This document shows, in pieces, positions 21,913 through 46,158 of a stretch of DNA of 64,000 nucleotides. How positions within the stretch are numbered: the first letter of the stretch is position 1; every line of letters begins with the position of its first letter. This stretch comes from Marinobacter salsuginis. GTDB lineage: Bacteria > Pseudomonadota > Gammaproteobacteria > Pseudomonadales > Oleiphilaceae. The stretch spans positions 2,418,001 to 2,482,000 of the forward strand of contig NZ_BGZH01000001.1 of NCBI RefSeq assembly GCF_009617755.1, in the 5' to 3' direction. The position numbers and the translations under genes are program-made. Below the pieces are notes generated by a model. That model was not told the DNA's origin. It ran no database searches and worked only from the letters and a program-made list of their open reading frames with translations.

Positions 21913-24282
21913 TCACGGGTTGCTGGTCGGGCTGACCGCAATGGCGTGCCATTGATTCTTGTAAAAACGCTCGATCGAGGTTTGCTCATCGTCAATCCGG
22001 AACAGATACAGCCAGTCGTTGTCGATGAGGTCCTGAACGACCTGGTGCTTCTGGGCAATCTCGGCAATGGCTTCTTTCGGTGCGGCCAGATACACGCTCA
22101 AGCGCAGGGGTTCGTGAACCCAGCGTTCGCCATCGTGTACGGACTGCAGCGGCAAACCGATGCGCAGATCACCACCGTTGCCTTCAAACACACCCAGGTG
22201 ACCGCCAACCACGTTGTGCAGCACTTTATTGCCGCTGCCGTAATGCAGGTTGTCGGTGACCGACATGAAGTACTGCAGGTTGATCCAGTGGGTGACCACC
22301 ATGGGCGCGGTCATGATCAGCTCAAGAATCTTGAACCCTTCATCGTTCTGCCAGCGGTAATCGTGCAGGAAGCTGCGTCCACCCAGATCCAGGTGCCGGG
22401 TGGCCGAGCGAGGCGCCACGATAAAGCTGGCGTTGCCGGCCAGGCCCCATTCCGGGCGTACTTCGGACCAGTCCTGGCTGCGTTTTCTGATGGCGCTGTC
22501 CACGTCGTTGTCGCTTGCGACACCCAGACGAACGGCGCGTTCGCGACGGGCCTGGGCTCCGGCCTTGGCCAGGAATTTCCGGATGTCGTCGGGAACCTCA
22601 CCGGCGCACTCGACCTCGTCGGTAGTGGTGTTATGCAGTGCTCCCACGAAGCGGGTTTCGGGAGGAATCGAGAGACCCTGTTCCGCCAGGGCCGCACGTA
22701 CGTCCTTGTCGTTCAGCATGTCGGCAAGCACACGAACATTCACCGAGCCGGTCTGGCCGCCGCAGGCGCCGCAGTCCAGGCCGGCGGCGTGGGGGTTGTT
22801 GCGGGTGCTGCTGCCGTGCCCGACCAGCAATACTGTCGGGGCAAACCGGTCGGTCAGGGTCATGGCCCTGAGGATACCGCCAGCCAGTTCCGTTTTCTCT
22901 TTAGCTCCCAAAAGGGTGCCATTCTGGCGGATCTCGAAGTTGGTATGTCCTTTATGGAGCTGGTCCACGGGCTTGGCCGATGACTTGCCAAAAAAGGTCT
23001 TGCGAACCATACGCCCCAGACCTGCCAGCCCCATACTTTCTATAAAGCTAAAACTGGCCGGACCCGCGTTGGAAAACTGTGACCAGTGGGTATGGTTAGC
23101 CAACGATTGCTGGCTGAAGCGGCCGGAGGATTCGGCCTCTGTGACTTCAAGCGCGGGTGCCAGCAGTCCCGGCAGTTGGGGCCGGGAAAATTCAGTGCCC
23201 TTGGGGCGATACGAAATCGGCAGCCCGAAGAAACCGGCGAACCCGAGTGTCTGGATCGCAGGGTCCTGGGCTTCCAGTGCACGGCGAAAGACCTCCGAGC
23301 GAACATCAATGCAGAATGCGGCCTGCAGTTTGAGGGGCTCGTCGCCCGGCAACGGTTTTTCCGGCTTTGACAGAAGCTTGTCAGCCAGCTGTAACTGATA
23401 GGCGGCCTCCGCTTCTCTCAGCTGGTGCCAACCTGTGGTTTGAGACTGCTCATGGATTTCCTGCATTTCCGGCCAGGCGTCCCACTGTTTCAGCCAGTCC
23501 CGTTTCAGCTCAGCGAAGATGGCGCCGCCAACGTGCTGGACATGCCGCCAGATGGCCAGCTCCCAGGCCAGCCGGATGGCCAGAAGGCCCGGGAGAAGGT
23601 CCTCCTCGCTGCCTCGCAGCCGTGCCTGCCAGCGCAGGTAAGCGGCCCAGGATGACCACCCGTTGATATCCAACAGTAGCGCGTGGGCATAATCGGCAGT
23701 GTAGGAGGGTTGCGCCGCGAGAGCGTTGAACGCGTCGGTGATCAGTTTTTCATGATCATTGGGCAGAACCTGAAATTGGGAAGGCAGGGATGGCTCTTCC
23801 ATAACAATGGCAATGCCACGGTCCGCGCGGGTCATCTCCAGCCAGCTGTGATACAGATCCTGTGCATCCGCTTTGAAATCTCCCGCATCCAGGCGCTGGA
23901 AGTAGTCGCCGCAGAACTGGCTGATCTGGTGTACAACCTCATCCTGCCAACCCACGTGATGAGCGGTATCGCGGTTGCGATCCAGTTGCGCGCTGAGGTT
24001 CTGCCAGTGCTCCGGCATGCTGGCGGTCTCGGCGTCGACTACGCCATTACCCTGATGATCAAGCGCTGCCTGATTCTGGCAGCAGGTGCCATTGAGTGCC
24101 GCCATACGAGAGGCGACTCTGGAAAAGGGCAAGTCCCGCATTTCCCAGAACGGGTTGACCGCGATCATCTGATCCAGGGGCCAGGACGGTGCGATTCGCC
24201 GGCAGGCATCCGAGACAGCTGCCTGCCACTCCGGTGTCTGTCTGTTCTGTTCAATCGATGGATCGAGTTGCCTTGCTTGCAT
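21913..24282 (-). CDS. dabA: DabA, inorganic carbon transporter subunit (UPF0753/DUF2309)
   Basis: A 789-residue protein of the DabA family, the carbonic-anhydrase-like half of an energy-coupled CO2/bicarbonate uptake system. The zinc ligands expected from the characterised family are present: Cys324 and Asp326 in FCIDVRSE, His489 in VGHGSSTRNNP, and Cys504 in GLDCGACGGQTG. It acts on the cytoplasmic face in complex with DabB. Its start overlaps the dabB stop by one base, so dabB-dabA form one unit. In a heterotroph it would supply bicarbonate for carboxylases. Confidence 0.93.
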   Translation of the reverse strand: MQARQLDPSIEQNRQTPEWQAAVSDACRRIAPSWPLDQMIAVNPFWEMRDLPFSRVASRMAALNGTCCQNQAALDHQGNGVVDAETASMPEHWQNLSAQLDRNRDTAHHVGWQDEVVHQISQFCGDYFQRLDAGDFKADAQDLYHSWLEMTRADRGIAIVMEEPSLPSQFQVLPNDHEKLITDAFNALAAQPSYTADYAHALLLDINGWSSWAAYLRWQARLRGSEEDLLPGLLAIRLAWELAIWRHVQHVGGAIFAELKRDWLKQWDAWPEMQEIHEQSQTTGWHQLREAEAAYQLQLADKLLSKPEKPLPGDEPLKLQAAFCIDVRSEVFRRALEAQDPAIQTLGFAGFFGLPISYRPKGTEFSRPQLPGLLAPALEVTEAESSGRFSQQSLANHTHWSQFSNAGPASFSFIESMGLAGLGRMVRKTFFGKSSAKPVDQLHKGHTNFEIRQNGTLLGAKEKTELAGGILRAMTLTDRFAPTVLLVGHGSSTRNNPHAAGLDCGACGGQTGSVNVRVLADMLNDKDVRAALAEQGLSIPPETRFVGALHNTTTDEVECAGEVPDDIRKFLAKAGAQARRERAVRLGVASDNDVDSAIRKRSQDWSEVRPEWGLAGNASFIVAPRSATRHLDLGGRSFLHDYRWQNDEGFKILELIMTAPMVVTHWINLQYFMSVTDNLHYGSGNKVLHNVVGGHLGVFEGNGGDLRIGLPLQSVHDGERWVHEPLRLSVYLAAPKEAIAEIAQKHQVVQDLIDNDWLYLFRIDDEQTSIERFYKNQWHAIAVSPTSNP

Positions 24283-25856
24283 TATGCAGACTCCCTGGAA
24301 CCGGAAGTTGAAGAAACGCTGACCATGGCCCTGGGACGCACCACATCAGGCAGTTTTGCTGGCCAGATTTTCAGGGTCAGGCGTGTGGACCACTCATCAA
24401 GGTAGCCCGCGGCAAACAGAAATCGGTAAAGCCTGGCGCCTGCGGAGGTGAACCGGTGATAGCGGATCTGGTAATAGCCGCGCACGAGCAGAGCGATAAG
24501 AACAACGACAAACCCCACGGCTTCCAGGCCCGCCTGACTATGGGGTGGTGTCAGCACCAGACCAAAGAAGGTTTTCTGCAGCCAGTACAACGCCCAGAAA
24601 ACCGCTCCAAGGAGTAAGCCCCTGCCAAGGGTAAGAACGCCGCCTGATGCAGACAGGAACTCTGAAAGCAGAATCGTCAACGCGATGCCCGGCACGACCC
24701 ATGAAAACAGATCCGCCGGCGCTGACTCGTTGGCCAGGAAAATCGTCGGCAGCATGAACAGGGCCGCAAAAGAAGCAGCTGTTAGCCACTGCCGCGGCCC
24801 GGGCTCGTTGATCGCAACCAGTCGTTTCTTCATCGACAACTCAACCGTGTTGCCGGCATTGAGGAAGGTGTGGGCTTTGTAGGCGGAATGGGCCACCAGG
24901 TGCAGGAGTGCCAGCTCGTATAGACCCAGAGCGCATTCAACCAGCATCCAGCCCATCTGGGCGCAAGTCGACCAGGCCAGTTTCACCTTGATGGAAATGC
25001 GCGTCATCATGACAAGGCTGGCAAAGACCGCCGTGGGGCCCGCTACCAACAGCAAAAGCCATTGGGCAGCGCTTGCCTGGACAATCAGAGGCGCCATCAG
25101 AATCATCAGGAAACCACCCAGGTTCACAACGCCAGCGTGAAGCAGGGCGGAGACCGGCGTGGGCGATTCAACCACCTGGATCAACCAACCGTGGAAAGGC
25201 ATTTGCGCGCATTTGAAGAGGGCCGCCGCCGCCATCAGGATCGCGGCAGCGTGCGCTGCGGCGGGCAATTCTGGTGACGCTGAAACCTGTGCCAGGATTC
25301 GATCAATGAACGGCGTGTCGTACTGAACATAAAGCAGCAGGAACCCCGCGCCCAGGCAGAGCTCCGCAATGCGCGCAAAAATGAACTTCTTGTGGGCGGC
25401 GAGGGCGGCACGCGGACGATCGGGGAAAAACATCAACAACTGATGCAGGCTGATGCTGATGGCGATCCAACTGATGAGGAACACCAGCAAATGGTTGGTG
25501 ATCGCGATGAAGGCAACACTGGCAAGGATCACCTGCAGCCAGACCATAAAGCTGCGCTGGCCCGGATCCCCCGCAAGATACCGTTCCGAGAAACGCCCCA
25601 GCACCATTCCCAGCAGAGTGATCAGCAACAACATGATAGAGGCCAGTGGCCCGTGGCTGAACCAGACGCCAGCTACGGGCCACAACCAACTTGTAATGGC
25701 GGCGGCCACAGCGGAAACGAAGGCGAGTTTGAAGGTCAGCGATCGTACGAGAAGGTTGTTCGGTTTGGTTGCAAACCCCGTCGCCACGGCCCCGGCGCCG
25801 TAAAGCAGCGGGACCAGCAGGTAGAACAAGGATTCGATCGCCTGAACGTCGAACAT
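24282..25856 (-). CDS. dabB: DabB, proton-conducting membrane subunit (NuoL-like)
   Basis: A 524-residue multi-pass protein of the NuoL/MrpA proton channel family, with about 13 hydrophobic segments. Conserved antiporter features include FHGWLIQVVESPTPVSALLHAG and a lysine-bearing helix after MTRISIKVKLAW. With DabA it is thought to couple cation flow to CO2 hydration. GAGG about seven bases before ATG 25856. It is divergent from an unknown gene across 255 bases. Confidence 0.92.
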   Translation of the reverse strand: MFDVQAIESLFYLLVPLLYGAGAVATGFATKPNNLLVRSLTFKLAFVSAVAAAITSWLWPVAGVWFSHGPLASIMLLLITLLGMVLGRFSERYLAGDPGQRSFMVWLQVILASVAFIAITNHLLVFLISWIAISISLHQLLMFFPDRPRAALAAHKKFIFARIAELCLGAGFLLLYVQYDTPFIDRILAQVSASPELPAAAHAAAILMAAAALFKCAQMPFHGWLIQVVESPTPVSALLHAGVVNLGGFLMILMAPLIVQASAAQWLLLLVAGPTAVFASLVMMTRISIKVKLAWSTCAQMGWMLVECALGLYELALLHLVAHSAYKAHTFLNAGNTVELSMKKRLVAINEPGPRQWLTAASFAALFMLPTIFLANESAPADLFSWVVPGIALTILLSEFLSASGGVLTLGRGLLLGAVFWALYWLQKTFFGLVLTPPHSQAGLEAVGFVVVLIALLVRGYYQIRYHRFTSAGARLYRFLFAAGYLDEWSTRLTLKIWPAKLPDVVRPRAMVSVSSTSGSRESA

Positions 25857-25941
25857 GTGAGGGCCTCGGAATCAAACGTGTGTGTACGCGTAGTATCCGA
25901 AAGTTTTTATGTGAACAAAAATATATATATCCGATCGAAGC

Positions 25942-25958
25942 GTTCTAAATTAAAGAAC
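25942..25958. promoter_or_regulatory. Inverted repeat in the dabB divergent gap
   Basis: GTTCT-N7-AGAAC within an A/T-rich stretch (about 25905-25965) between dabB and the divergent 184-residue gene. The A/T-richness contrasts with the coding DNA and suggests promoters. Arms are only five bases, so this is a weak operator candidate. Confidence 0.3.
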
Positions 25959-26111: not shown

Positions 26112-26666
26112 GTGGATCGTGAAAACAAGGGGGCATTCCTGGCTCGAAGGAAAAAGCACTCCACATTGACGGCCGGGCTATACCACCCCACGCCCGAAGC
26201 CATGATGACCGAATACTGGGGTGTGTTCGTGGATAATACGCCATACATCCTACTGCTATCTGACAACCAGCGGAGCGCTCGCGAGAAAGCTGAGCGGCTG
26301 GCCGAATCTGCGAATTTCCGGACGCTCCTTGAAGCAACGCTGACAGCCTGCAAGGCAATCGAGGCGAGGGCTATTGACGGCCGCACCGTAAATTGGGGGG
26401 AGCAACTCACCGTGATCAGCGCCAGTCGCTCTGGCGATGTGGAAACGGGGACCAGGGAAATCGGCGAGATCAGGGCGATCCTGATGCCAGGTTGTCATCA
26501 GGCCATAGCGGATACCCTCTGCATAGACACCACCCTCGCGACCATCATTGATGCGGATTTTCCCCAGGTGTCAGATTTTGAAGAGTTGCCAGAACTGTCC
26601 GAGCGTGATGTGCAGATGTCGCTGGGGAATCTGGAGGCCCGCAAACATCCCCGTGGGGGCCATTAA
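26112..26666 (+). CDS. Hypothetical protein between dabB and the formate dehydrogenase operon
   Basis: A 184-residue protein if it starts at GTG 26112; ATG 26202 or 26205 (MTEYWGVFVDNTPYILLL) is a serious alternative and gives about 154 residues. No membrane segment or motif is recognised. The C-terminal half is acidic. It is convergent with the TusA-like gene. The gene is unlike a shadow ORF, as no other frame here is coding. Function unknown; position suggests it could belong with either dab or fdh. Confidence 0.55.
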   Translation: MDRENKGAFLARRKKHSTLTAGLYHPTPEAMMTEYWGVFVDNTPYILLLSDNQRSAREKAERLAESANFRTLLEATLTACKAIEARAIDGRTVNWGEQLTVISASRSGDVETGTREIGEIRAILMPGCHQAIADTLCIDTTLATIIDADFPQVSDFEELPELSERDVQMSLGNLEARKHPRGGH

Positions 26667-26712
26667 AGATGCGTTCTTTCTACGGGCTTGAGGTGTCTTC
26701 CGAAATCGGCCA

Positions 26713-26952
26713 TCAGGCGAGGCGAATTCGATAGCGGGTAACGCCGTGGCTTTCTTCCCGAGTCCACTCAATCCGGTGGCCAGTGATCTCACACAGGGCT
26801 TGCAGGTCTTTGCGGCCGGTGGGGTCGTCCGCCAGAAAATCTACCTGTGTACCGCTGGGCAGGTCTTTGACCCGTTTTTTGAAGCGCAGGACGGGAAGGG
26901 GGCATACCAGACCGACGGCGTCGATCTGGTATACCTCAGACTGATCAGTCAA
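26713..26952 (-). CDS. TusA/SirA-like sulfur-carrier protein
   Basis: A 79-residue protein with the TusA signature: DAVGLVCPLPVLRFKK (sulfur-carrying Cys-Pro), then the FLADDPTGRKDL block. The likely start is TTG 26952, which overlaps the stop of the 41-residue gene upstream; the longer frame to 27030 is probably not translated. It is the last gene of the fdh operon. A sulfur-relay role for formate dehydrogenase maturation (towards FdhD or the Mo/W-sulfido ligand) is inferred from position. Confidence 0.75.
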   Translation of the reverse strand: MTDQSEVYQIDAVGLVCPLPVLRFKKRVKDLPSGTQVDFLADDPTGRKDLQALCEITGHRIEWTREESHGVTRYRIRLA

Positions 26953-27070
26953 GGCGAACGCTCTCGGCGCTGGTTTGTGCGGCCGACGACCAGCCAAACT
27001 GGTTAAGCACCAGCGGTGCCGCCGTAGCAATCAGCAGAGCTGCGACAAACGCGGAAATCATGACCTTCAC
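26945..27070 (-). CDS. 41-residue single-helix membrane protein of the fdh operon
   Basis: A short gene found by reading the gap. GTG 27070 overlaps the fdhC stop (GTGA) and has an excellent AAAGGAGG six bases upstream. The product begins MKVMISAFVAALLIATAA and has one hydrophobic helix (about residues 4-22), then a polar tail ending SAESVRLD. It overlaps the start of the TusA-like gene. Coupling on both sides plus the strong ribosome binding site argue that it is real. It may be a small accessory subunit of the membrane-bound dehydrogenase. Confidence 0.65.
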   Translation of the reverse strand: MKVMISAFVAALLIATAAPLVLNQFGWSSAAQTSAESVRLD

Positions 27071-28239
27071 GATGATCCTCCTTTGCCTTGTTTGGCCTCA
27101 ACTTCAGCTACCCACAGGTCGTGGTGCTGGCGAGCCCACTCGAGATCAACCTGCCCGTTGCCCATGGCGTCGAACGCGCCTTCCATACCGACAGAGCCGA
27201 TGTAGATATGGGCAATGATGGCCAGCATCATCACAAACGCTACAATCGAATGCCAGATGTTCGCGTATTGCATCTCTTCATGGGGTGCGAGATCGGTCGG
27301 GAAGCTGGTTCCCAGAATGCTGTTGATCACCGCGAATGTGTCGGCAAACATCGGCATCTGGAACGGAAACAGCAGTGACAGACCTGACAGGGATACCGAG
27401 ACGCCCAGAATCATCACCGTCCAGAAAATGATCTTCTGGCCAGCATTGAACTTCTTGGCGGAAGGGTGGCCTTTGGTAAAGATACCGCCGCCAGCCTTGA
27501 TCCACTGCCAATCGAGTTTGTTGGGTATGTTGTGGGCAACCCACATCACGAAGGTCATCACCAGGCCGAGCATAAATGCCCAGGCCACGTTGTTATGCAG
27601 CCATTTGGAACCGGCTGCCAACGTGGCAAACGCGTCCGGCCCCATAACCGGAATCAGGAAGCTGCGTCCCATCAAGGTGATCAGCCCGGTCAGGCCGAGT
27701 GCGATGAACGAGCCGGCCAGCAACCAGTGACCAAAGCGCTCGACAGCCTTGAACCGCTCAATGGTGGTACCCGCAGGCCCGCCATCAATCATGATTTTGC
27801 CGCGAACGAAATAGAACACCACCAGCAGGCCGATGATCGCGAGCAGTGCGCCGCCGCCATAGGTGATCATCGGGCCTTCCCGAAGCTTCCACCAGGGCAT
27901 GCCGCCGTCCTGAATCAGCACATCGGCGGCTGGGCCGCGTACCTGAGTGGTTGGCTCAATTTCGTTGTAGCGGATAGCCCGCCAGTTTTCCGAATCGGAG
28001 ACGCCGCCCCGGGTTCCCAAAGGCGCCGAGACAGAGGGTGCGTTCTCCGGATTACCAAGATTCTGAGAGCGGAAACTGTCGTCGACTTCCAGCTGCTTTT
28101 GGCGTCGCAGGATGTCTTCGAGGGTTTGAGCCCCACCGGTTGCGCTTCGTTCCGGTTCGGGAATGTCCTGCGCCCAGGCAGGATTGAATAACAGCGTCGC
28201 TAGCACCAGGGCGACGACGCCTATCAGTTTTTTGTTCAT
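27067..28239 (-). CDS. fdhC: Formate dehydrogenase gamma subunit (cytochrome b)
   Basis: A 390-residue inner-membrane cytochrome b. A signal peptide (ending PAWAQD) and a periplasmic extension of about 100 residues precede the first core helix. Then come about five transmembrane helices with histidines suited to haem binding: ERFGHWLLAG, KWLHNNVAW, NIWHSIVAF and AIIAHIYIG. It takes electrons from the iron-sulfur subunit and reduces quinone. The long N-terminal extension is typical of the Pseudomonas/Marinobacter-type FDH and not of E. coli FdnI. Confidence 0.9.
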   Translation of the reverse strand: MNKKLIGVVALVLATLLFNPAWAQDIPEPERSATGGAQTLEDILRRQKQLEVDDSFRSQNLGNPENAPSVSAPLGTRGGVSDSENWRAIRYNEIEPTTQVRGPAADVLIQDGGMPWWKLREGPMITYGGGALLAIIGLLVVFYFVRGKIMIDGGPAGTTIERFKAVERFGHWLLAGSFIALGLTGLITLMGRSFLIPVMGPDAFATLAAGSKWLHNNVAWAFMLGLVMTFVMWVAHNIPNKLDWQWIKAGGGIFTKGHPSAKKFNAGQKIIFWTVMILGVSVSLSGLSLLFPFQMPMFADTFAVINSILGTSFPTDLAPHEEMQYANIWHSIVAFVMMLAIIAHIYIGSVGMEGAFDAMGNGQVDLEWARQHHDLWVAEVEAKQGKGGSS

Positions 28240-28327: not shown

Positions 28328-28936
28328 TTATGCACCCTTCTTCTCGTAGGCAGTGCCCCATCCCCACGCACCGGAACCGAAACCACGGTTCACAATACGC
28401 TGGCGATAGATATCCGCAACCTCGTCGCCGTCACCGGCCAACAGGGCTTTGGTTGAGCACATTTCCGCACAGATCGGCAGTTTGCCCTCAGCAATACGGT
28501 TACGACCGTACTTCTGGAACTCAACAGTGGAATTGTCTTCTTCCGGACCGCCTGCACAGAACGTGCATTTGTCCATCTTGCCCCGGCTGCCAAAGTTGCC
28601 CGCTTGCGGGAACTGGGGCGCACCGAACGGGCATGCGTAGAAGCAATAGCCACAACCGATACACAGGTCCTTGGAGTGGAGCACGACACCGTCTTCGGTC
28701 TGGTAGAAGCAATCCACCGGACAGACAGCCATGCAAGGCGCATCTGAACAGTGCATGCATGCTACAGAGATCGAACGCTCTCCCGGCTTGCCATCTTCGA
28801 TGGTTACCACCCGGCGACGGTTGATGCCCCAGGGAACCTCGTGCTCGTTCTTACAGGCCGTTACGCATGCATTACATTCGATGCAGCGCTCGGCGTCGCA
28901 AAGGAATTTTGCTCTTGCTTGTCCTTCAAGTGCCAT
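28328..28936 (-). CDS. fdhB: Formate dehydrogenase beta subunit, four-cluster ferredoxin
   Basis: A 202-residue iron-sulfur protein with four cysteine groups for [4Fe-4S] clusters: CIECNACVTACKNEH, CMHCSDAPCMAVCP, CIGCGYCFYACPFG and the pair CTFC/CAEMC. It wires the catalytic subunit to the cytochrome b. It has no membrane helix of its own, unlike E. coli FdnH, which agrees with the different gamma subunit. Sixteen bases separate it from fdhA. Confidence 0.93.
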   Translation of the reverse strand: MALEGQARAKFLCDAERCIECNACVTACKNEHEVPWGINRRRVVTIEDGKPGERSISVACMHCSDAPCMAVCPVDCFYQTEDGVVLHSKDLCIGCGYCFYACPFGAPQFPQAGNFGSRGKMDKCTFCAGGPEEDNSTVEFQKYGRNRIAEGKLPICAEMCSTKALLAGDGDEVADIYRQRIVNRGFGSGAWGWGTAYEKKGA

Positions 28937-31928: not shown

Positions 31929-32120
31929 TTAAAAGCGAGCCGATTCGAAATATTTACGTGTGTGTTCGGTATCACGTAATCCGCGGCTTTTCGGTGCGTC
32001 TGTTCTGACGACCTCGGCTGCGGCGTTCGGTGCAACCGTCGCTGCCACCGCAGCCGGAGCTGCGAAAGCGGCCATTTTCAGGAAATGGCGACGGCTGTTT
32101 TCACGCTTCGGGTTGTCCAT
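31929..32120 (-). CDS. Small Tat-signal protein of the fdh region (FdhX-like)
   Basis: A 63-residue protein with a twin-arginine motif (NSRRHFLKMA) and a hydrophobic stretch, ending in a short tail with RDTEHTRKYFESARF. Small proteins of this kind regularly precede fdhA genes and are annotated as formate dehydrogenase region Tat targets. GGAGG six bases before ATG 32120. The HTRKYFESARF tail is the conserved part of the family. Exact role unknown; it may be a small FDH subunit or an assembly factor. Confidence 0.8.
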   Translation of the reverse strand: MDNPKRENSRRHFLKMAAFAAPAAVAATVAPNAAAEVVRTDAPKSRGLRDTEHTRKYFESARF

Positions 32121-37798: not shown

Positions 37799-38271
37799 AA
37801 CTGGCCCGAACCCTGAGACTGGACATTTCCGATGAAAACGTCTTCGAGCGGCCGGCACCCAGTGGGGAGTGGGCCATTTCTGGCGGCTTCGAGTTTTCCA
37901 ACTGGACCGAGGCGGACCTGACAGGCAAAGCCCGGCAAGCCTTCACCAATGGCTGGTACAGCATTGAGTCGGGTGGTCGTGCCAGCTTTGTTGGCGTGTG
38001 CGACATTACCGAGCCGGAGCTGGAGCGGCTACGCCAGACGCTCGCGCAGACTTTTGTGGAGATCTATGGCGCGCCGGACATCGAGGCCGCTTACCCGGTG
38101 GCCTGTGAAGAAATCGACCAGATGCGCAGCATGTGCGAAGACTTTGAGGACAACACCCTGCTGATGGTCAGCCGCACCCTGACCGACCTGGGCGTTGAGG
38201 AAACCTACCGCTCCCGTGGCCCGCAGGATGCCTCACTGGAGGCCTTTGCGGTCCACGGCAGCGTTGACTGA
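37795..38271 (+). CDS. DUF6505 protein
   Basis: A 158-residue acidic soluble protein. MKLARTLRLDISDENVFERPA and the later WYSIESGGRASFVGVCDI match by eye the DUF6505 family seen near formate dehydrogenase accessory genes. No catalytic motif. Its ATG overlaps the previous stop (ATGA). It is convergent with moeA; the stop codons abut at 38271/38272. Function unknown. Confidence 0.7.
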   Translation: MKLARTLRLDISDENVFERPAPSGEWAISGGFEFSNWTEADLTGKARQAFTNGWYSIESGGRASFVGVCDITEPELERLRQTLAQTFVEIYGAPDIEAAYPVACEEIDQMRSMCEDFEDNTLLMVSRTLTDLGVEETYRSRGPQDASLEAFAVHGSVD

Positions 38272-39519
38272 TTACAGGCCGAAGCTGCCGTAGGGAATAA
38301 ATCGGACGGGGGTGCCGGGCTCGATCTGCTGGGCGCTCTCATCCAGTTCCACCAGACCCTCGGACCAGGCCAGACCGGTCACCCGGCCAGAGCCTTCCGA
38401 CCCGAATACCTCGACCTTCCCATCGCGAACCCGTGCCCGCAGCATCTCGCTGCGCCCGGGTTTTTTGTTCTTCGAGAAGTCAGCCGGCATGGTATACGCT
38501 TGGGGCTCGAACCATTCGGCCCCTGCCAACAATGCCATGGCAGGCGCACCAAACCTCAGCGCACAGACCCAGGCGGCCACCGGATTACCCGGCAGACCGA
38601 CTACCGGCGTGCCCCGGAACATGGCAAGCGCCAGAGGACGGCCGGGTTTGATGGCAATGCGCCAGTTACTGATGTCACCGTGTTCTTTCAGGGTTTTCGA
38701 CACATGATCCTCGTCGCCGGCGGACACGCCGCCGCTGGTCAGGATCAGGTCACACTGCTCCGCGCCGCGCTCCAGGGCCGCCTTCACCTCTTCGGCCCGG
38801 TCCAGCACATGGCCAAGATCCACGAGCTCGTAGCCGAGTTGTGATACCAGGGCGCTGAGCATAGGGCGATTGGCGTCGTATATCTGCCAGTCTGTGACGG
38901 GTGCGCCCACCGGCTTCACCTCATCACCGGTGGACAGCACGCCCACCCTTAGTCTCTGATAAACATCAACGGCTTCCACGCCCACGCTGGCAAGCACCGA
39001 AATCTGGGTCGGACTGAGCCGCGTTCCGGCCGTAAGAATCCGGTCCTCGACTTTGATGTCTTCACCGGCTTTGCGGGCATTGGCGCCTGCTTTTAGCGTA
39101 CCGTTCAAATGCAACTGGCCATCCCGGACTTCGCAGTCTTCCTCCAGAACCACGGTATCCGTGCCGGCGGGAATAACCGCGCCTGTCAGAATCCGGATTG
39201 CGTATCCCTTGGGCACCTGCCCCTTGTAAGGCTCACCGGCGGCGCTGCGGCCATCCACCAGAGGCAGGGTGCAGGGCACGTCCGTTAACGGCCCGGCAAG
39301 AGCATAGCCATCCACGGCGGAATTGGTGCTTGGGGGATGAGCCCGGGGCGCATAGACATCACTTGCCAGGATTCGGCCGTTCACCTGTGACAGCGGAACC
39401 TCACGCTCCACCTCCACCACGGGATGCAACCTTGAACGCAACCGCTCAAGGGCTTCTTCGACCGGCGTCCAGTTCACGCCCGGGGGAAGGGCAAAACAGT
39501 CATTGCGAAGCGGCTTCAT
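38272..39519 (-). CDS. moeA: Molybdopterin molybdenumtransferase MoeA
   Basis: A 415-residue enzyme that inserts molybdate (or tungstate) into adenylylated molybdopterin. SAVDGYA near residue 70, GVEAVDVYQRLRVGVLSTGDE near 180, LTSGGVSAGDEDHV near 260 and GLPGNPVAAWV near 305 are the MoeA landmarks. It overlaps mobB by four bases, in an operon fdhD-mobA-mobB-moeA. Since Mo-enzymes need this function generally, it may be the only copy or a cluster-dedicated one. Confidence 0.92.
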   Translation of the reverse strand: MKPLRNDCFALPPGVNWTPVEEALERLRSRLHPVVEVEREVPLSQVNGRILASDVYAPRAHPPSTNSAVDGYALAGPLTDVPCTLPLVDGRSAAGEPYKGQVPKGYAIRILTGAVIPAGTDTVVLEEDCEVRDGQLHLNGTLKAGANARKAGEDIKVEDRILTAGTRLSPTQISVLASVGVEAVDVYQRLRVGVLSTGDEVKPVGAPVTDWQIYDANRPMLSALVSQLGYELVDLGHVLDRAEEVKAALERGAEQCDLILTSGGVSAGDEDHVSKTLKEHGDISNWRIAIKPGRPLALAMFRGTPVVGLPGNPVAAWVCALRFGAPAMALLAGAEWFEPQAYTMPADFSKNKKPGRSEMLRARVRDGKVEVFGSEGSGRVTGLAWSEGLVELDESAQQIEPGTPVRFIPYGSFGL

Positions 39520-40022
39520 GACTCTCTCGCTGGTGGCTGTACATGATCAATAATAAAATCGGCAATGCCGGTGACGTCATTGATATCGAACAAAGGCCCG
39601 GAAAAATCGGCGGCATAGTCGCTGGCAACGGCGATGATGTTGGCGTCTTCCCGGTAAAGGGGCGATCGGCCCGATTCCTGCCGGTGTACTTCAATCTTCG
39701 GGTGCGCGTGGGTTTTGTAACCCTCCACCACGACCCAGTCGCAGGGCGACAGGCGGGCCAGCAAATCCTCCAGTGAGGGCTCACCTGCGCCCCGCAGCTC
39801 GTGCATGATGGCAATGCGCTGGCCCCCGGCCAGAATCACTTCGCGGGCACCGGCTTCACGGTGTTTGTAGCTGTCCGTTCCGGGCTGATCCACGTCCACC
39901 ATGTGGTGGGCGTGCTTGATCGAGCTGACCGTTAAACCCCGGCCGGAAAGTTCGCGAATCAGAGCGGCTGCCAGTGTGGTCTTGCCGGAGTTTTTCCAAC
40001 CTACGATGCCTATAACGTTCAC
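39516..40022 (-). CDS. mobB: MobB, GTP-binding partner of MobA
   Basis: A 168-residue P-loop protein. GWKNSGKTTL near residue 8 is Walker A, and WVVVEGYKTHAHPKIEVHR near 95 is the MobB signature. It assists bis-MGD synthesis. Overlaps both neighbours by four bases (ATGA-type junctions). Confidence 0.92.
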   Translation of the reverse strand: MNVIGIVGWKNSGKTTLAAALIRELSGRGLTVSSIKHAHHMVDVDQPGTDSYKHREAGAREVILAGGQRIAIMHELRGAGEPSLEDLLARLSPCDWVVVEGYKTHAHPKIEVHRQESGRSPLYREDANIIAVASDYAADFSGPLFDINDVTGIADFIIDHVQPPARES

Positions 40023-40606
40023 TTCAGATGCTGCTCCGCCCAGGCCAGATCGTCCGGGGTGTTGATGTTGAAAAAATCGCCCTCGTCAAAAACCACCAGA
40101 GTTTCGCCCTGGGCCTGTGTCCACTGGCGGATCTTGCGTACGCCCTCGTTCAGGGCGGCTCTCAAATCGTCCCTCAAAGCGACCCGCCAGCGCCCGAAGG
40201 TTGGCTGTGGCAGTCGGCCGCGCTCGGGGTCTGGCGTGGCTGCCAGCACCACCGGAGTGTCATGTTCCGCCAGTTTGGCAGCCAGATCCCTGGGAAAGAA
40301 CGGTGTGTCGGCGGCCACGCTGATGAGCCATTCGTGGCCCTGTTCGGCGGCCCAGTCCATGCCCGCGAGCACGCCGGCAAGCGGGCCGGGGAAGCCTTCG
40401 ATGGAGTCCGCCACCACCGGCAGATCCAGGTCGTCGAACCGGCTTAAATCCCCGTTGGCATTCAATACCACGGCATCGACCTGAGGTGTGATCCGTTCGA
40501 TTACCCGCTGGATCAACGACTGGTCGCCGAGCATGAGCCTGCCTTTGTCGCCACCACCCATGCGGTTTGCCTGGCCGCCGGCCAGGATAACTGCACATTG
40601 GCTCAT
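40019..40606 (-). CDS. mobA: MobA, molybdenum cofactor guanylyltransferase
   Basis: A 195-residue nucleotidyltransferase. LAGGQANRMGGGDKG near residue 8 is the GTP/Mg site, and VAADTPFFPRDL near 98 carries the catalytic aspartate. It adds GMP to Mo-molybdopterin, giving the bis-MGD needed by FdhA. Twelve bases after fdhD. Confidence 0.93.
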   Translation of the reverse strand: MSQCAVILAGGQANRMGGGDKGRLMLGDQSLIQRVIERITPQVDAVVLNANGDLSRFDDLDLPVVADSIEGFPGPLAGVLAGMDWAAEQGHEWLISVAADTPFFPRDLAAKLAEHDTPVVLAATPDPERGRLPQPTFGRWRVALRDDLRAALNEGVRKIRQWTQAQGETLVVFDEGDFFNINTPDDLAWAEQHLK

Positions 40607-40618
40607 GCAGTGCCTCCG

Positions 40619-41488
40619 TCAATCATGTTGAGCGCCTTTTCGACGTAGCTTCTTGTCTTCATCGGGTACCTGCGACAAGTCCTGATCGAACACCAGGCGG
40701 TGCTGGCCGCTCAGGCAGGTGAATTTCTTGCCACGCATCCGGCCGATCAGGGTCAGCCCGACCTGACGAGCAATGTCGACTCCCCAGGCGGTGAAGCCCG
40801 AGCGGCTGATCAGAGTGGGAATGCCCATCAGGGATGTTTTTATCACCATCTCCGAGGTCAGGCGGCCGGTGGTATACAGAACCTTGTCTGCGGCCGGAAT
40901 GTTATTCAGGTGCATCCAGCCGGCAATTTTATCGACCGCGTTGTGCCTTCCAACATCCTCCATGTACGCCAGGATTGTTTGTCCCTGGCAAAGCGCTGTG
41001 CCGTGGATGGCGCCGGTTTCCATATACAGGCTAGGCGTATGGTTGATCTGGTAGGAGAGATCGTAAAAGGTGCTGGTGTGCACTGGCGTATCCGGCAGTG
41101 ACAGACCTTCCAGCCCGGCCATCATGTCACCGAACACGGTGCCCACGGCGCAACCGGAGGTGCGGGTTTTCTTTTCCAGCTTGTCCTCGACATCGGTAAC
41201 GCCTGACGTGCGCACCACCGCAACCTCGAGTTCTTCGTCAAAATCGATCCCGGTGACCGTGTCTGTTTCTTTCAGCATGCCCTGGTTGAGCAGGAAGCCG
41301 AGGGCCAGATACTCCGGATGGTCGCCGATGGTCATGGCTGTGACGATCTCCTGGCTGTTCAGGTAGATGGTCAGGGGGCGTTCCTCGATCACGCTGATCG
41401 ATTTGGCCTCACCGTTCTCGTCCACGCCCTCCACTGGGCGAGACAGACGGGGATCCTTGGGATCGGGAAGTATGGGATCAATCGTCAT
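40619..41488 (-). CDS. fdhD: FdhD sulfurtransferase, single-cysteine variant
   Basis: A 289-residue protein that passes sulfur from IscS to the bis-MGD cofactor of formate dehydrogenase. EDVGRHNAVDKIAG and SRSGFTAWGVDIARQVGL are the FdhD signatures. Where E. coli has a CxxC pair (Cys121, Cys124), this protein has TSGCAVGT, so only one cysteine is kept. First gene of the fdhD-mobA-mobB-moeA operon. The ribosome binding site before ATG 41488 is poor. Confidence 0.9.
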   Translation of the reverse strand: MTIDPILPDPKDPRLSRPVEGVDENGEAKSISVIEERPLTIYLNSQEIVTAMTIGDHPEYLALGFLLNQGMLKETDTVTGIDFDEELEVAVVRTSGVTDVEDKLEKKTRTSGCAVGTVFGDMMAGLEGLSLPDTPVHTSTFYDLSYQINHTPSLYMETGAIHGTALCQGQTILAYMEDVGRHNAVDKIAGWMHLNNIPAADKVLYTTGRLTSEMVIKTSLMGIPTLISRSGFTAWGVDIARQVGLTLIGRMRGKKFTCLSGQHRLVFDQDLSQVPDEDKKLRRKGAQHD

Positions 41489-41617: not shown

Positions 41618-41671
41618 CGATCTGGGCAGGGTAAACAGACGCTCAGTTCAGTCGCCCTTGATCCTTTTGCC

Positions 41672-42478
41672 TCACTGGGCGTTCGGGAAGAACAGTTGCT
41701 GCCCGTCCACTTTGAAGTCGGCAATCGCCTGCTGGCCTTCTTCCGACAGCAGCCAGTTGTGCCACTGGGCTGCCAGGTCGTGTTTGAGGTGTGGGTGCTT
41801 TTCTTCGGAGAGCAGCAAGCTGCCGTACTGGTTAAAAAGTACTTTGTCGCCTGAGAACAGCAGCTCGAGATTCTGGCGATTTTCGAACGCGACCCAGGTA
41901 GCACGGTCGGACATCACATAGGCGTCCATCCCGGCGGCGGTGTTCAGGGTCGGACCCATGCCGCTACCCAGTTCCCGGTACCAGCTGCCGCCCGGTTCCA
42001 CGCCGGCGTTTTCCCAAAGCCTGAGCTCGGCCCGGTTGGTGCCGCTGTCATCGCCTCGCGATGCAAACGGTGCCTCTGCTTCGGCGATGGCCGAGAAGGC
42101 TTCGGCGGCGCTTTCCGCGTCACGGATATTGGCGGGATCGTCTTTCGGGCCGATCAGCACGAAGTCATTGTACATAACGTCTGCCCGCTCGGTGGCAAAG
42201 CCGTTTTCGACAAACCGCTTTTCCCCGGCGGTGTCATGTACCAGCAGGCTGTCGGCGTCGCCCCGGCGGGCAAGCTCAAACGCCTGGCCGGTGCCGACGG
42301 CAACAACGCGGACTTCGATGCCGGTTTTTTCCTCAAACTTGGGCAGGATCGAGTCGAACAGGCCGGAGTTCTGGGTGGACGTGGTTGAGGCCAGCGTTAT
42401 GTAGTCGTCGGCTTGGGCACTGAAGGTCAGGCCCATGGTCGTCACGGCAGCCAGAACCAGATTCAGGGTTTTCTTCAT
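41672..42478 (-). CDS. tupA: Tungstate ABC importer, periplasmic binding protein TupA
   Basis: A 268-residue binding protein. Signal peptide to about residue 23 (TFSAQAD), then LASTTSTQNSGLFD, the TTTSxxxSG-like oxyanion site that separates TupA/WtpA-type proteins from ModA, and SRGDDSGTNRAELRLW. It binds tungstate with high selectivity in characterised relatives. Last gene of tupB-tupC-tupA, with a separate gap of 68 bases that fits extra translation of the binding protein. Confidence 0.92.
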   Translation of the reverse strand: MKKTLNLVLAAVTTMGLTFSAQADDYITLASTTSTQNSGLFDSILPKFEEKTGIEVRVVAVGTGQAFELARRGDADSLLVHDTAGEKRFVENGFATERADVMYNDFVLIGPKDDPANIRDAESAAEAFSAIAEAEAPFASRGDDSGTNRAELRLWENAGVEPGGSWYRELGSGMGPTLNTAAGMDAYVMSDRATWVAFENRQNLELLFSGDKVLFNQYGSLLLSEEKHPHLKHDLAAQWHNWLLSEEGQQAIADFKVDGQQLFFPNAQ

Positions 42479-42546
42479 CTTGTTTTCTCCTTGTTGTGTC
42501 TCATTTGTAGAGCGAGCGATGGTTCGATACGTTTTGCGGTGAGTGA

Positions 42547-43290
42547 TCAGGCCACGAGTTCTCCGCTCAGGAAGGCCTGGGCCTGGCGTGAAACCGGGGC
42601 GTTGAAAAAAACGTTAGCCGGTGTGTGCTCCTGCACTTTGCCTCCAGCCAGAAACAGCACATCTCCGGCAAGCCGCTTGGCCTGGTGCAGGTCATGAGTC
42701 GTCATTACGATGCGTGTACCTCTCTCGTGAAATTCCTGAACGGCGGCTTCCACGTCCTTTATGGCAGCAGGGTCCAGTGCAGAGGTGGGCTCGTCCAGAA
42801 ACAGTACCGAGGGTGAAAGTGCCCAGGCCCGGGCCAGTGCCAAGCGTTGCTTCTCGCCACCCGATAACACCCGGGCGGGCGTGTCGGCACAGGCGGACAG
42901 GCCGAAGCGTGCCAAGGCTTCCCGTGCCAGTTCTGCACGCCGCTTGCGTGGGATGTTATTGACAGCCAGCGCGTGGGTGAGGTTGGCCAGTGCGGAACGG
43001 CGCAGAAGAACTGGGGTCTGAAATACCATGGCCTGACGGGGTTTTTTGTCACCGGACCAGGTTATGACTCCCTCCGTTGCCGCGAGCAGCCCGTGGGCCA
43101 GGCGGAGCATCAGGCTCTTGCCCGCGCCATTGGGGCCCATCACCAGTGTGGGGCCGGGGCCGTCCAGCGTGAATGAGCAGGGTCCGAAAAGCTGGTGGCC
43201 GAGAAGGTTGAACTCGACGTTGTCAAAGCGCAGCGACGGCGGTGCATTGAGTTCGATTTGTCTGTTAACGGGCACGTTCAACGATGTCAT
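42547..43290 (-). CDS. tupC: Tungstate ABC importer ATPase TupC
   Basis: A 247-residue ATPase. Walker A GPNGAGKSL, signature LSGGEKQRLALARA, Walker B VLFLDEPTSALDP. No C-terminal TOBE domain is present, unlike ModC; regulation by oxyanion must come from elsewhere. Overlaps tupB by four bases. Confidence 0.88.
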   Translation of the reverse strand: MTSLNVPVNRQIELNAPPSLRFDNVEFNLLGHQLFGPCSFTLDGPGPTLVMGPNGAGKSLMLRLAHGLLAATEGVITWSGDKKPRQAMVFQTPVLLRRSALANLTHALAVNNIPRKRRAELAREALARFGLSACADTPARVLSGGEKQRLALARAWALSPSVLFLDEPTSALDPAAIKDVEAAVQEFHERGTRIVMTTHDLHQAKRLAGDVLFLAGGKVQEHTPANVFFNAPVSRQAQAFLSGELVA

Positions 43291-43985
43291 CCCATGCGCC
43301 TCTTGGCCGTTTCACTCAAAATGTACGCAGTCGCGTTGATCACCATGACAAGCGTAAGCAGTACAATGCCGAGGCCCAACGCCAGGGGCAGGGCGCCCTT
43401 GCTGGTCTCAAGCACAATGGCCGTTGTCATGACCCGGGTGACGCCGTCAATGTTGCCGCCAACCATCATGACCGCGCCGACTTCCGCGCTGGCCCGGCCG
43501 AACCCTGCGAGCAGAACGGTCAGCAGGGCAAAGCGGGCGTCCCACAGCAGCGTGGGCATCATGCGGGCCTTCGACATGCCCAGCGAAACGAACTGTTCCC
43601 GGTACTCGACCAGCAACTCCTCCACTTTCTGGCGCGAGAGCGCAGCGAGAATGGGTAACACCAGTATCACCTGCGCAATCACCATGGCCCCGGGCGTGAA
43701 CAGAAGACCCAGTTCGCCAAGCGGTCCGGCCCTCGATAGCAGCAGGTAAACGCCAAGCCCTGCCACAACCGGCGGCAGTCCCATCAGCGCATTCAGCGCC
43801 ACAATGACCCCGCCGCGTCCGGGGAACTGCCATAACGCAACCGCAGCGCCCAGTGGAAAACCCAAAAGCGCAGCTATCAGGACTGCAACGAGCGAAACCT
43901 GCAGCGATAGCACCACGATCTGGTACAGCGAAGCATCGAGATTCACCAGCAGCGACAGCGCCACGTAAAACGCATTTTCTTCCAC
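43287..43985 (-). CDS. tupB: Tungstate ABC importer permease TupB
   Basis: A 232-residue permease with five or so transmembrane helices and the EAA-like loop LVEYREQFVSLGMSKARMMPTL replaced in part by the TupB form. GFGRASAEVGAVMMVGGNIDG is conserved in tungstate permeases. First gene of the tup unit, divergent from the oxyanion-binding-like regulator across 116 bases. Confidence 0.88.
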   Translation of the reverse strand: MEENAFYVALSLLVNLDASLYQIVVLSLQVSLVAVLIAALLGFPLGAAVALWQFPGRGGVIVALNALMGLPPVVAGLGVYLLLSRAGPLGELGLLFTPGAMVIAQVILVLPILAALSRQKVEELLVEYREQFVSLGMSKARMMPTLLWDARFALLTVLLAGFGRASAEVGAVMMVGGNIDGVTRVMTTAIVLETSKGALPLALGLGIVLLTLVMVINATAYILSETAKRRMG

Positions 43986-44039
43986 AGCAGCGTCTCCTTA
44001 ATATTGAGCATCGTGGCGTTTTTAACTACGCTTTGCGAT

Positions 44040-44080
44040 GCATTGCGTAAATAATGCAGCTAGAAACAGCATTATGCGTA
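44040..44080. promoter_or_regulatory. Repeat cluster in the tupB/regulator divergent gap
   Basis: Two direct copies of GCATT(AT)GCGTA, at 44040-44049 and 44069-44080, and an inverted pair ATAATGC (44051-44057) / GCATTAT (44069-44075), all in the 116-base divergent promoter region. This looks like the binding site of the neighbouring regulator and would let it control both tup and itself. Confidence 0.55.
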
Positions 44081-44101
44081 TCAACTGACTCCGGAGGTCC
44101 G

Positions 44102-44986
44102 ATGTCTCTGCCTGACTATCTCACTACGGCCGAGGCTGCCGAGTATCTGCGCCTGAAAGAACGAAAGGTCTACGATCTGGTGGGCCAGGGCGTGATTCCC
44201 TGCGTGCGGGTGACGGGAAAGCTTTTATTTCCCCGCCAGCGTATAGACCTCTGGCTGATGAATCATTTGGAGGGTGACGAAGGCGTCAGTGCGCCAACGC
44301 CACCCGTGCTGGTGGGTAGCCAGGATCCGCTGCTGGAGTGGGCGGTGAAGGAGAGCAATGCCGAGCTGGCGATGCTGTGCCAGGGCAGCGGAGACGGGGT
44401 GCAACGCCTGGTCGACGGGCGCGCCATGGTTGCTGGCATGCATATCTGGCACGCGCAGACTGAGCGTTACAATGATCCGGTGACCCTGGGCTTGAGCGGC
44501 ATGCGTGACCTGGTATTGATCCGCTGGGCAAAACGCCGGCAGGGCCTGCTTCTTGCGCCGGATAATCCCCACGGAATTGTGCAACTGGAAGACATCGCCC
44601 GGTCGGGCCTGCGTCTGGCCCACCGCCAGCCCGAGGCCGGTGTTAGTCATCTGCTGCAGAGCCTGCTCGCCAGCTACCGAATCGATGGCAGCCAGCTTGC
44701 CTGGGCCGCACATCCCTCGCTCAGTGAGGACGATCTGGCTCTGGCCATTCGTCAGGGAGAAGCGGATGTCGGTGTGGGTATTGAAGCGGCGGCCAGGCGC
44801 CAGGGCTTGGCATTTATCCCCCTGCAGCAGGAGCACTTCGACCTGGCCATGCGCCGGCGCCATTATTTCGAGCCGGCCATGCAGCGTTTGCTGGCCTTTG
44901 CCGGTAGCGAACGATTCGCGCATAGGGCCGAGACATTGGGCGGGTATGATGTGAGTGAACTTGGTAAAGTAGTGTATAACGCTTGA
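44102..44986 (+). CDS. One-component regulator: excisionase-type HTH fused to a periplasmic-binding-protein-like domain
   Basis: A 294-residue cytoplasmic protein. Residues about 5-55 are a MerR/excisionase-type helix-turn-helix (YLTTAEAAEYLRLKERKVYDL, then FPRQRIDLWL). Residues about 75-290 resemble the PBP-like domain of molybdate-binding proteins (SGDGVQRLVDGRAMVAGMHI, HRQPEAGVSHLLQSLL, GEADVGVGIEAAAR). It lies between the tungstate importer and a molybdate/sulfate permease, so Mo/W oxyanion sensing is the likely role; no ModE is present here. GGAGG precedes ATG 44102. Confidence 0.8.
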   Translation: MSLPDYLTTAEAAEYLRLKERKVYDLVGQGVIPCVRVTGKLLFPRQRIDLWLMNHLEGDEGVSAPTPPVLVGSQDPLLEWAVKESNAELAMLCQGSGDGVQRLVDGRAMVAGMHIWHAQTERYNDPVTLGLSGMRDLVLIRWAKRRQGLLLAPDNPHGIVQLEDIARSGLRLAHRQPEAGVSHLLQSLLASYRIDGSQLAWAAHPSLSEDDLALAIRQGEADVGVGIEAAARRQGLAFIPLQQEHFDLAMRRRHYFEPAMQRLLAFAGSERFAHRAETLGGYDVSELGKVVYNA

Positions 44987-45024
44987 ACGACAACAATAAG
45001 CAGACCATTCAGGCAGGAGCCCTC

Positions 45025-46158
45025 ATGGGTTCGACCATGAAGAAGGTGATCAGTGAAAGCAGCGGCGCGCTGGGTGACATTGGCACATTGCTGCCCTTGA
45101 CTCTCGGTGCCATCGGCGTGGCCGGACTTGCTCCAGTACCGGTACTCCTGGGTTTTGCCGTGTTTTACATCGCGACAGGTCTGTATTACCGCCTTCCTGT
45201 CCCGGTGCAGCCCATGAAAGCCGTGGCCGCGTTGCTGTTGACCACCCAGGTCAGTGCCCAGAGCCTGATCGCCAGTGGCGTTCTGATCGGTGCCATCCTG
45301 TTGCTTCTGGGGTCAATCGGATGGATCAACCGGGCGGCCCGCCTGGTGCCGGGGTCGGTATTGAGCGGCCTGCAACTGGGGCTGGGTTTGTTGTTGGCCA
45401 GCATGAGCCTGGAATTGATGGCTACCTCCCTGCCGCTGGGCCTGGTCGTGCTGGGGTTGCTGGTGGTTACCCTGAAACTGTTCCCCAGCTGGCCGGCGGC
45501 GCTGATGGGGCTGGCGTTGGCCATGGTCCTCGGTGCGCTGCTGGGTTCACCCGGGCTGCCATTGCCGGCGGATCCCGCCATCTTCTCGATGCCCACATTG
45601 CCCTCGATGGATGAGTGGCAGCAGGGGTTCTCTATCCTGGTGTTGCCGCAACTGGCGTTGACTATCACCAACGCCATCGTTCTGACAGCTCTGGTGGTGG
45701 GGGATTATTTCGGAGATCAGTCCCACCGGGTCTCACCGGCACGGCTGTCCGTCACTACTGGCCTGGCCAACCTGTTTCTGGTGCCATTCGGCGCCTTGCC
45801 CATGTGCCACGGCGCCGGGGGTGTTGCGGCCCACTATCGCTTTGGCGCCCGCACCGGTCTGGCGCCGGTCCTGCTGGGCACGGGATTACTCCTGGTGGCG
45901 ATCGTGCCCGGTGGTCTCTCGTTCATTGCCGCCGTGCCCGCGGCGGGTCTTGGCGCTCTGCTCATGGTTGCTGCTGTTGAACTGGGCCTCACCAAACGTC
46001 TCTGGACCGCCAAACCCTCTTGCTGGCCGGTGATTGGCATCACGGCTCTGATCACCTTCTGGGCCGACCCGTTTTTCGGCTTCCTCATCGGGGTGGCCGC
46101 GGAGACGTTCCGGTCAGCCTGGTTGCGTGGACGTTTCAACGGTGTGCATCAAGACTGA
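45025..46158 (+). CDS. Putative sulfate/molybdate permease (MOT1-like)
   Basis: A 377-residue permease with about 10-11 transmembrane helices. ESSGALGDIGTLLPLTLGAIGV at the N-terminus and PMCHGAGGVAAHYRFGARTG near residue 270 are signatures of the SulP-related MOT1 group of molybdate/sulfate transporters. ATG 45025 with GGAG is preferred over a TTG at 44983 that overlaps the regulator stop. Co-transcription with the regulator is likely. Confidence 0.85.
   Translation: MGSTMKKVISESSGALGDIGTLLPLTLGAIGVAGLAPVPVLLGFAVFYIATGLYYRLPVPVQPMKAVAALLLTTQVSAQSLIASGVLIGAILLLLGSIGWINRAARLVPGSVLSGLQLGLGLLLASMSLELMATSLPLGLVVLGLLVVTLKLFPSWPAALMGLALAMVLGALLGSPGLPLPADPAIFSMPTLPSMDEWQQGFSILVLPQLALTITNAIVLTALVVGDYFGDQSHRVSPARLSVTTGLANLFLVPFGALPMCHGAGGVAAHYRFGARTGLAPVLLGTGLLLVAIVPGGLSFIAAVPAAGLGALLMVAAVELGLTKRLWTAKPSCWPVIGITALITFWADPFFGFLIGVAAETFRSAWLRGRFNGVHQD

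Follow-up and report, generated by a model that had tools for sequence, protein, structure and literature searches.

An FDH3-type formate dehydrogenase locus of Marinobacter salsuginis with a putative pre-export maturation module

We analysed a 64,000-nucleotide window (C1:2418001-2482000) of the 4.15-Mb genome of Marinobacter salsuginis, in which the genes between positions 21913 and 46158 of the window surround an FDH3-type formate dehydrogenase (FDH), FdhABC, whose catalytic subunit bears a twin-arginine translocation (Tat) leader. Using gene calls, family scans, genome samples, trees and predicted structures, we find that a set of helper genes, most of them unstudied, keeps close company with FDH3. 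We propose, at a probability of roughly 0.6, that FdhABC is served by its own pre-export maturation module, acting in place of FdhE and laterally acquired from an alphaproteobacterium.

Results

The features of the locus are as follows (window positions; "optional" marks genes that are not regular members of FDH3 loci).

21913-24282, minus strand: DabA (gene calls, family scans)
24282-25856, minus strand: DabB (gene calls, family scans)
26112-26666, plus strand: open reading frame (ORF) of 184 amino acids, no family, strand opposite to both neighbours
about 26713-26946, minus strand: TusA-like small sulfurtransferase (PF01206, 4.6e-16; start codon uncertain)
26945-27070, minus strand: 41-amino-acid protein with a single transmembrane segment, overlapping the fdhC stop
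27067-28239, minus strand: FdhC, cytochrome b subunit (TIGR01583, 130.7 bits vs cut-off 115.85)
28328-28936, minus strand: FdhB, FDH3-type beta subunit (NF038355, 347.3 bits vs cut-off 240)
28952-31837, minus strand: FdhA, molybdopterin catalytic subunit (PF00384, PF01568, PF04879)
31929-32120, minus strand: 63-amino-acid Tat-signal protein, formate_TAT-like (TIGR02811, 44.0 bits, under the cut-off of 48.45)
32161-32772, minus strand: TorD-type chaperone (PF02613, 4.6e-32)
32882-33529, minus strand: DUF3306 protein (PF11748, 6.7e-22)
about 33529-34107, minus strand: DUF3305 protein (PF11749, 3.6e-36)
about 34250-36229, plus strand: "polyferredoxin", an iron-sulfur (Fe-S) scaffold (start ATG at 34250 assumed)
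36249-37094, plus strand: Mrp/ApbC-type Fe-S carrier ATPase (PF10609, 4.4e-99; optional)
37091-37798, plus strand: BirA-like pseudo-ligase (PF16917, 1.7e-70)
37795-38271, plus strand: DUF6505 protein (PF20115, 3.9e-66)
38272-41488, minus strand: MoeA, MobB, MobA and FdhD (FdhD 40619-41488), general genes for the bis(molybdopterin guanine dinucleotide) cofactor (bis-MGD), joined to the locus in this lineage (Pfam, NCBIfam)
41672-43985, minus strand: TupABC-like oxyanion importer (TupA and TupB models under cut-off; optional)
44054-46158, plus strand: HTH_17 plus PBP_like regulator and MOT1-like permease (PF12728, PF12727, PF16983; optional)

Gene calls and family scans recovered every gene that a preliminary description of this DNA had listed, at or near its place. 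That description had them "in one run", which does not hold: DabA-DabB lie on the minus strand, the 184-residue ORF on the plus strand, tusA to DUF3305 on the minus, polyferredoxin to DUF6505 on the plus, moeA to fdhD with the importer on the minus, and the regulator with MOT1 on the plus, which makes at least five strand changes with the ORF counted. Rfam and tRNA scans of the window gave no feature; a promoter scan (9 vs 5.3 in shuffles) and a terminator scan (17 vs 17.5) were not used.

Judged from its subunits, the enzyme is of the FDH3 type. FdhB lies well over the curated cut-off of the FDH3_beta family and the cytochrome b subunit over that of TIGR01583, while FdhA is a molybdopterin catalytic subunit in whose translation we read by eye a twin-arginine leader (DRRQFL) and an ARICHS motif, the cysteine of which we take to be a metal ligand. 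The 63-residue Tat peptide stays below the formate_TAT cut-off.

We searched a single set of 398 genomes from the window's phylum for several of the families. Of these genomes 61, spanning 35 of 212 genera, have FDH3_beta (E 1e-50 or better), and 61 have DUF3305 (E 0.001 or better), the two genome lists being identical. The two genes share a contig in 61/61, at a distance of 3.8-12.0 kb (median 6.5 kb; start positions, one copy each), a pairing that is more than chance. The 27 genomes with DUF6505 and the 28 with the FDH-type ligase all belong to these same 61 (hypergeometric 2.7e-25 and 2.5e-26, shared ancestry being ignored in both), and 34 of the 61 have no DUF6505. The ligase count comprises 28 matches of 151.9 bits or more. 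Two matches of about 95 bits, in genomes G198 and G488, were dropped as BirA, since they carry a GRGR motif and follow three antiporter-type ORFs that we read as nuoLMN. In another, class-level draw (185 genomes) DUF6505 occurred in three, the window's own, G093 and G155, and the last two are also FDH3-positive. Strong scaffold matches (E 1e-40 or better) occurred in 18 of 150 genomes, all 18 FDH3-positive, a one-way relation from scaffold to FDH3. The genome-wide search with DUF3306 covered the window's own genome, and its other counts below are at locus level. The preliminary description had asked whether these families occur independently of Fdh genes: every carrier of DUF3305, DUF6505 or the FDH-type ligase among the 398 genomes is also FDH3-positive, and so is every genome with a strong polyferredoxin match among the 150.

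Linkage was examined in three sets of loci. The first comprised 28 loci centred on DUF6505, the window left out, with features scored within 20 kb. FdhA, TorD, DUF3305, DUF3306 and scaffold all lie within that distance in 25/28, alongside the ligase (240 bits or more) in 24, Mrp in 14, MoeA in 8, TupA in 6, and FdhD and MobA in 4 each. The three exceptions are L050 (G198), L053 (G488) and L062 (G093). In G198 a single contig holds fdhB, the scaffold at a distance of 38 kb and DUF6505 at about 378 kb, both retained, and in G488 and G093 DUF6505 is on a different contig from FDH3; linkage is therefore not obligatory. The second set held 38 FDH3 loci, from 33 of the 34 DUF6505-free FDH3 genomes (G505 left out) together with further loci of G198, G488 and G375. 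TorD is present in 35, scaffold in 34, DUF3305 in 32 and DUF3306 in 31; in four of the six loci without DUF3305 (L075, L084, L086, L091) the stretch ends short of the gene by about 1 kb or less.

The third set came from named genomes, probed with FdhB in place of the DUF6505 alignment, which proved too variable. From 574 loci we retained the best 80; going by title, almost all of these are alpha-, beta- or gammaproteobacterial, and FDH genes are present by construction. We counted in the 52 of 20 kb or more; the counts are lower bounds because the stretches reach only 10 kb either side of fdhB. TorD occurs in 49, scaffold in 48, and DUF3305 and DUF3306 in 47 each, followed by FdhD (26), ligase (21), DUF6505 (20), MobA (11), MoeA (8), TupA (7), MobB (5), Mrp (4) and TusA (1). 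Thus DUF3305, DUF3306, TorD and the polyferredoxin are the sole near-constant members, ligase and DUF6505 form a subset layer, and Mrp, MoeA, MobA, MobB and the Tup genes are optional within these stretches. The second layer, with the 41-residue protein, is found mainly in alphaproteobacterial-type loci and the Marinobacter-like genus. A protein of about 340 amino acids, absent from the window, sits between DUF6505 and DUF3305 at L056:10318-11316 (DUF6352) and, alike by eye, at L047:10237-11319. Two second FDH3 operons, L067 (G488) and L079 (G414), have none of TorD, DUF3305, DUF3306 and scaffold nearby, and may share the helpers of the other FDH3 copy.

When G093 and G155 are added to the 61, the FDH3 genomes number 63, and FdhE (PF04216) was found in 2 of them, with the E. 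coli control matched. An FdhE-dependent route would require an FdhE gene; the window's genome (G000) gave no match. FdhD is common among FDH3 loci and FdhE is not. Passages of a 2023 review (PMC10609526) describe fdhE as systematically associated with periplasmic FDH operons and as the factor dedicated to periplasmic FDHs; with FdhE in only 2/63, that rule does not apply to the FDH3 class in this sample. Maturation of E. coli FDH-N and FDH-O by FdhD and FdhE likewise serves Tat-exported bis-MGD formate dehydrogenases, and FdhD is kept here, whereas FDH3 genomes mostly have DUF3305, DUF3306 and an HdrA-like scaffold instead of FdhE (not found in 61/63). The nearest precedent lies in a 2015 survey of TorD/DmsD/NarJ chaperones in fdhGHI operons (PMC4464133), parts of which place DUF3305, DUF3306, a ferredoxin and fdh-tat near chaperone and FDH genes, and term DUF3305/3306 putative membrane proteins found in 60% of dmsD-linked fdh operons. 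What differs here is the one-to-one pairing of DUF3305 with FDH3 across genomes, the 2/63 figure for FdhE and a compact alpha/beta model of DUF3305. As for expression, in Shewanella oneidensis SO4503 (FdhD), SO4504-SO4506 and SO4509 stand together in a regulator-mutant table of PMC2535785, and SO_4506, SO_4507 (FdhT), SO_4509 and SO_4510 in a RyhB table of PMC5826389; we assume SO4504 and SO4505 to be the DUF3305/DUF3306 pair.

The preliminary description's "polyferredoxin" appears to be more than a polyferredoxin. Its predicted model (pLDDT 91.2) has structural matches to HdrA (residues 2-351), to MvhD (358-476) and, in its C-terminal part, to the fold of HycF (7z0t_F; 26% identity, two clusters, CxxC..CxxC). 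Sixteen cysteine positions are candidate [4Fe-4S] ligands, 15 of them present in 35/35 members and the sixteenth (C320) in 28/35. The N-terminal domain of HdrA has a four-cysteine pattern; in the scaffold C10, C12, C39 and C60 are each cysteine in 22/35 members, the window's included, and the 13 gammaproteobacterial short forms are without this region. HdrA-like in fold and in these four cysteines, the protein departs from HdrA in its flavin site: the flavin adenine dinucleotide (FAD) motif GxGxx[GA], as a relaxed pattern, occurs in 4/35 members and not in the window's protein. Within the MvhD-like part (357-476) no position is cysteine in 20 or more of the 35. We describe the scaffold as a predicted mosaic of HdrA, MvhD-like and HycF-like parts with no clear flavin motif. 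Methanogen HdrA-MvhD, including the FDH-Hdr complex 7bkb, shares the first two parts and differs in that the bacterial protein is a single chain with a HycF-like C-terminus, encoded beside an exported FDH. HycF itself is subunit 6 of formate hydrogenlyase, whereas here its fold lies within a larger scaffold, in a module without recognised hydrogenase genes. At L129:3872-5992 (plus strand), the sole case seen, DUF3306 signatures are naturally fused to a short-form scaffold. The scaffold match at G263:C1:155445-157193 holds two in-frame stops, through assembly error or decay.

The DUF3305 model (pLDDT 88.5) gave no solved match in the structure search, and profile searches of PDB sequences with DUF3305 and DUF6505 gave nothing credible. 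The name of the NCBI family NF011058 suggests a fusion of MobA with DUF3305. The window's DUF6505 protein is closest to Marinobacter (92%), and the literature search, with subscription journals largely outside its coverage, gave nothing on this family.

The "ligase-fold protein" of the preliminary description does match BirA (hhalign probability 99.7), and its close relative 3bfm (7e-63) has been solved and is described as a "biotin protein ligase-like protein of unknown function". BirA-type ligases have a GRGRxG loop and a catalytic lysine after WPND, both shown by the genome's own BirA. In the 47 members of the present family the GRGRxGR loop is missing throughout, with no loop insertion, and lysine follows WPND in none (arginine in 15). 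The motifs thus mark it as a BirA-like protein lacking the BirA catalytic motifs, a pseudo-ligase. None of the 21 ligase matches in named loci has a GRGR motif, including two low scorers (L115, 174 bits; L118, 154 bits); GQGR and GRG strings in L059 and L060 are stray, located elsewhere than the BirA loop.

With a hidden Markov model built on seven seeds, relatives of the 41-residue protein turned up in 41 of the 155 loci examined; they come after fdhC, behind a c-type cytochrome that itself follows fdhC, or at other places in the stretch. Five whole genomes, three of which had contributed members to the model, gave one significant match each (4e-12 to 4e-20; next best 0.03), every one at the FDH3 locus within about 12 kb of fdhB. 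Against 18 members, Pfam and NCBIfam held no family matching more than one at E 0.1 (best 0.011). By these searches the protein represents a conserved, unannotated small-protein family of FDH3 loci.

For FdhA a tree of 55 rows was made by a quick method, and for the scaffold one of 53 rows, with sampling limited to copies near FDH loci. In both, the window falls together with three genomes of its genus and seven rows of f210, a family from another class than the window, apart from 16 other gammaproteobacterial rows (Shimodaira-Hasegawa-like approximate likelihood ratio test, SH-aLRT, 99 for FdhA; bootstrap/SH-aLRT 100/100 for scaffold). Two further f210 rows, L070 and L071, are one fork further out, and L048 is on a different branch. 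FdhA identity to that of two Roseobacteraceae plasmids is 75-84% for the seven f210 rows, from which f210 appears to be alphaproteobacterial, 78-81% for the window and 62-65% for three gammaproteobacterial loci. The FdhD and MobA trees also place the window with alphaproteobacterial-type rows, and MoeA is mixed. On both plasmids fdhC to DUF6505 are clustered and ordered as in the window, DUF6494 being placed between scaffold and Mrp, and the scaffold is found on 80 plasmid records, 47 from one genus. Because the window falls with Roseobacteraceae-like sequences in the FdhA and scaffold trees, lateral acquisition of the module is probable and is the parsimonious reading of the island; the inferred direction is from an alphaproteobacterium to a Marinobacter-like recipient. 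The small DUF6494 gene lies at L193:13741-13932 and L194:12978-13181.

In three genomes of the same genus, the roughly 14 kb that lie downstream of fdhC gave no match to DabA, DabB or the 184-residue ORF, and DabA and DabB occur in 0/52 named loci; a link of Dab to FDH was rejected as unsupported. The tusA gene (69-76% identity) and the 41-residue gene (71-78%) are both matched there and adjoin one another in 3/3; TusA is a genus-level member of the fdh block. Two of the three genomes retain the whole stretch from tusA to MOT1; the locus fetched from the third, G247, is without regulator and MOT1. TupABC-like transporter genes are present as the preliminary description had it, and its tungstate label is a guess because TupA (201 vs 400 bits) and TupB (158 vs 320) score under their curated cut-offs. 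Five loci (L052, L054, L092, L131 and L145) encode a fusion of MoeA with the PBP-like domain found in the window's regulator family, a hint that the domain recognises a ligand related to molybdenum cofactor.

Discussion

How might such a module act? We suggest that apo-FdhA would be synthesised in the cytoplasm, where TorD would hold it, while MobA, MobB and MoeA with FdhD would supply sulfurated bis-MGD, and DUF3305 may help to place the cofactor. The scaffold, possibly tethered by DUF3306 to which it is fused in L129, would dock on FdhA-FdhB and provide Fe-S clusters or electrons ahead of Tat export; the pseudo-ligase and DUF6505 may be non-catalytic binding partners, and the 41-residue protein may join FdhC in the membrane. 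The whole module would have come laterally from an alphaproteobacterium. The maturation role is inferred from gene company and sequence features. A more specific version, in which the flavin-less, HdrA/MvhD-derived scaffold docks on cytoplasmic FdhAB as methanogen HdrA-MvhD does on FDH, reduces or loads its metal centres and, with DUF3305, licenses Tat export without FdhE, is tentative, and we hold it to be rather doubtful.

Several observations weigh against a dedicated maturation module. The FDH3 genomes are not independent of one another (61 genomes, 35 genera). Within the stretch covered, 5/52 named loci are without DUF3305 and 5/52 without DUF3306; the second FDH3 copies L067 and L079 have neither of these two, nor TorD or scaffold, nearby, and DUF6505 is unlinked in G198, G488 and G093. 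A MobA-DUF3305 fusion was seen in 0/148 loci scanned, so that the cofactor-placing role leans on the NF011058 name. Both FdhE-positive FDH3 genomes also keep DUF3305, S. oneidensis is listed with an FdhE (SO0104), and according to PMC4464133 97% of the species that have a TorD-fdh operon carry FdhD/E in trans, a figure that lumps FdhD with FdhE and with which our 2/63 for FdhE alone disagrees. The literature search gave no deletion data making any helper necessary for FDH activity. Finally, the scaffold could equally be a redox partner instead.

That last point can be extended to the partners, as a cytoplasmic electron-transfer branch exchanging electrons with unexported or pre-export FdhAB in the manner of methanogen HdrA/MvhD, with no part in assembly. 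HdrA, MvhD and HycF are all subunits of redox complexes, the best structural matches include 7bkb_A of the FDH-Hdr complex, and the [4Fe-4S] cysteines are conserved as described. However, the active enzyme should be periplasmic, given the Tat leader on FdhA and the membrane cytochrome FdhC; the flavin motif occurs in only 4/35 members, widely shared cysteines are wanting in the MvhD-like part, the module of the window shows no recognised acceptor gene, and DUF3305, DUF3306 and TorD match no redox family. We regard this alternative as unlikely. It is also conceivable that TorD, DUF3305, DUF3306 and scaffold are what matters, and that pseudo-ligase, DUF6505, DUF6352, DUF6494, Mrp and the 41-residue protein are clade-level additions, regulatory or unrelated, travelling laterally with the operon. 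An island that seems to move as a block and the 34 FDH3 genomes without DUF6505 would fit, but DUF6505 is kept in FDH3 genomes even where unlinked and the ligase is likewise confined to them in the sample, and we consider this quite improbable. The preliminary description's single assembly line, from CO2 import by DabBA to tungstate import and MOT1, draws on the contiguity of the genes in this genome, on the partial conservation from tusA to MOT1 within the genus and on the alphaproteobacterial-type origin shared by FdhD and MobA. With DabBA found neither near fdhC in three same-genus genomes nor in the 52 named loci, Mrp, MoeA, MobA, MobB and Tup optional, and regulator and MOT1 missing from the G247 locus, we give it very little credence.

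The maturation reading suggests that the helper set represents a second route by which exported formate dehydrogenases are assembled. As FdhE was not found in 61 of the 63 FDH3 genomes and the partner set is one-to-one, DUF3305, DUF3306 and the HdrA-like scaffold are direct genetic targets. Such a role would show biotechnologists which helper genes to co-express for active Tat-type FDHs in CO2 reduction, and gives a testable function for 3bfm, a structure solved without one.

At other FDH3 operons, ORFs with WD40-like repeats occur at L047:19013, L056:5154 and L069:1, of which two, by eye, end in a CxxCH cytochrome-like part, and these may possibly encode an electron acceptor.

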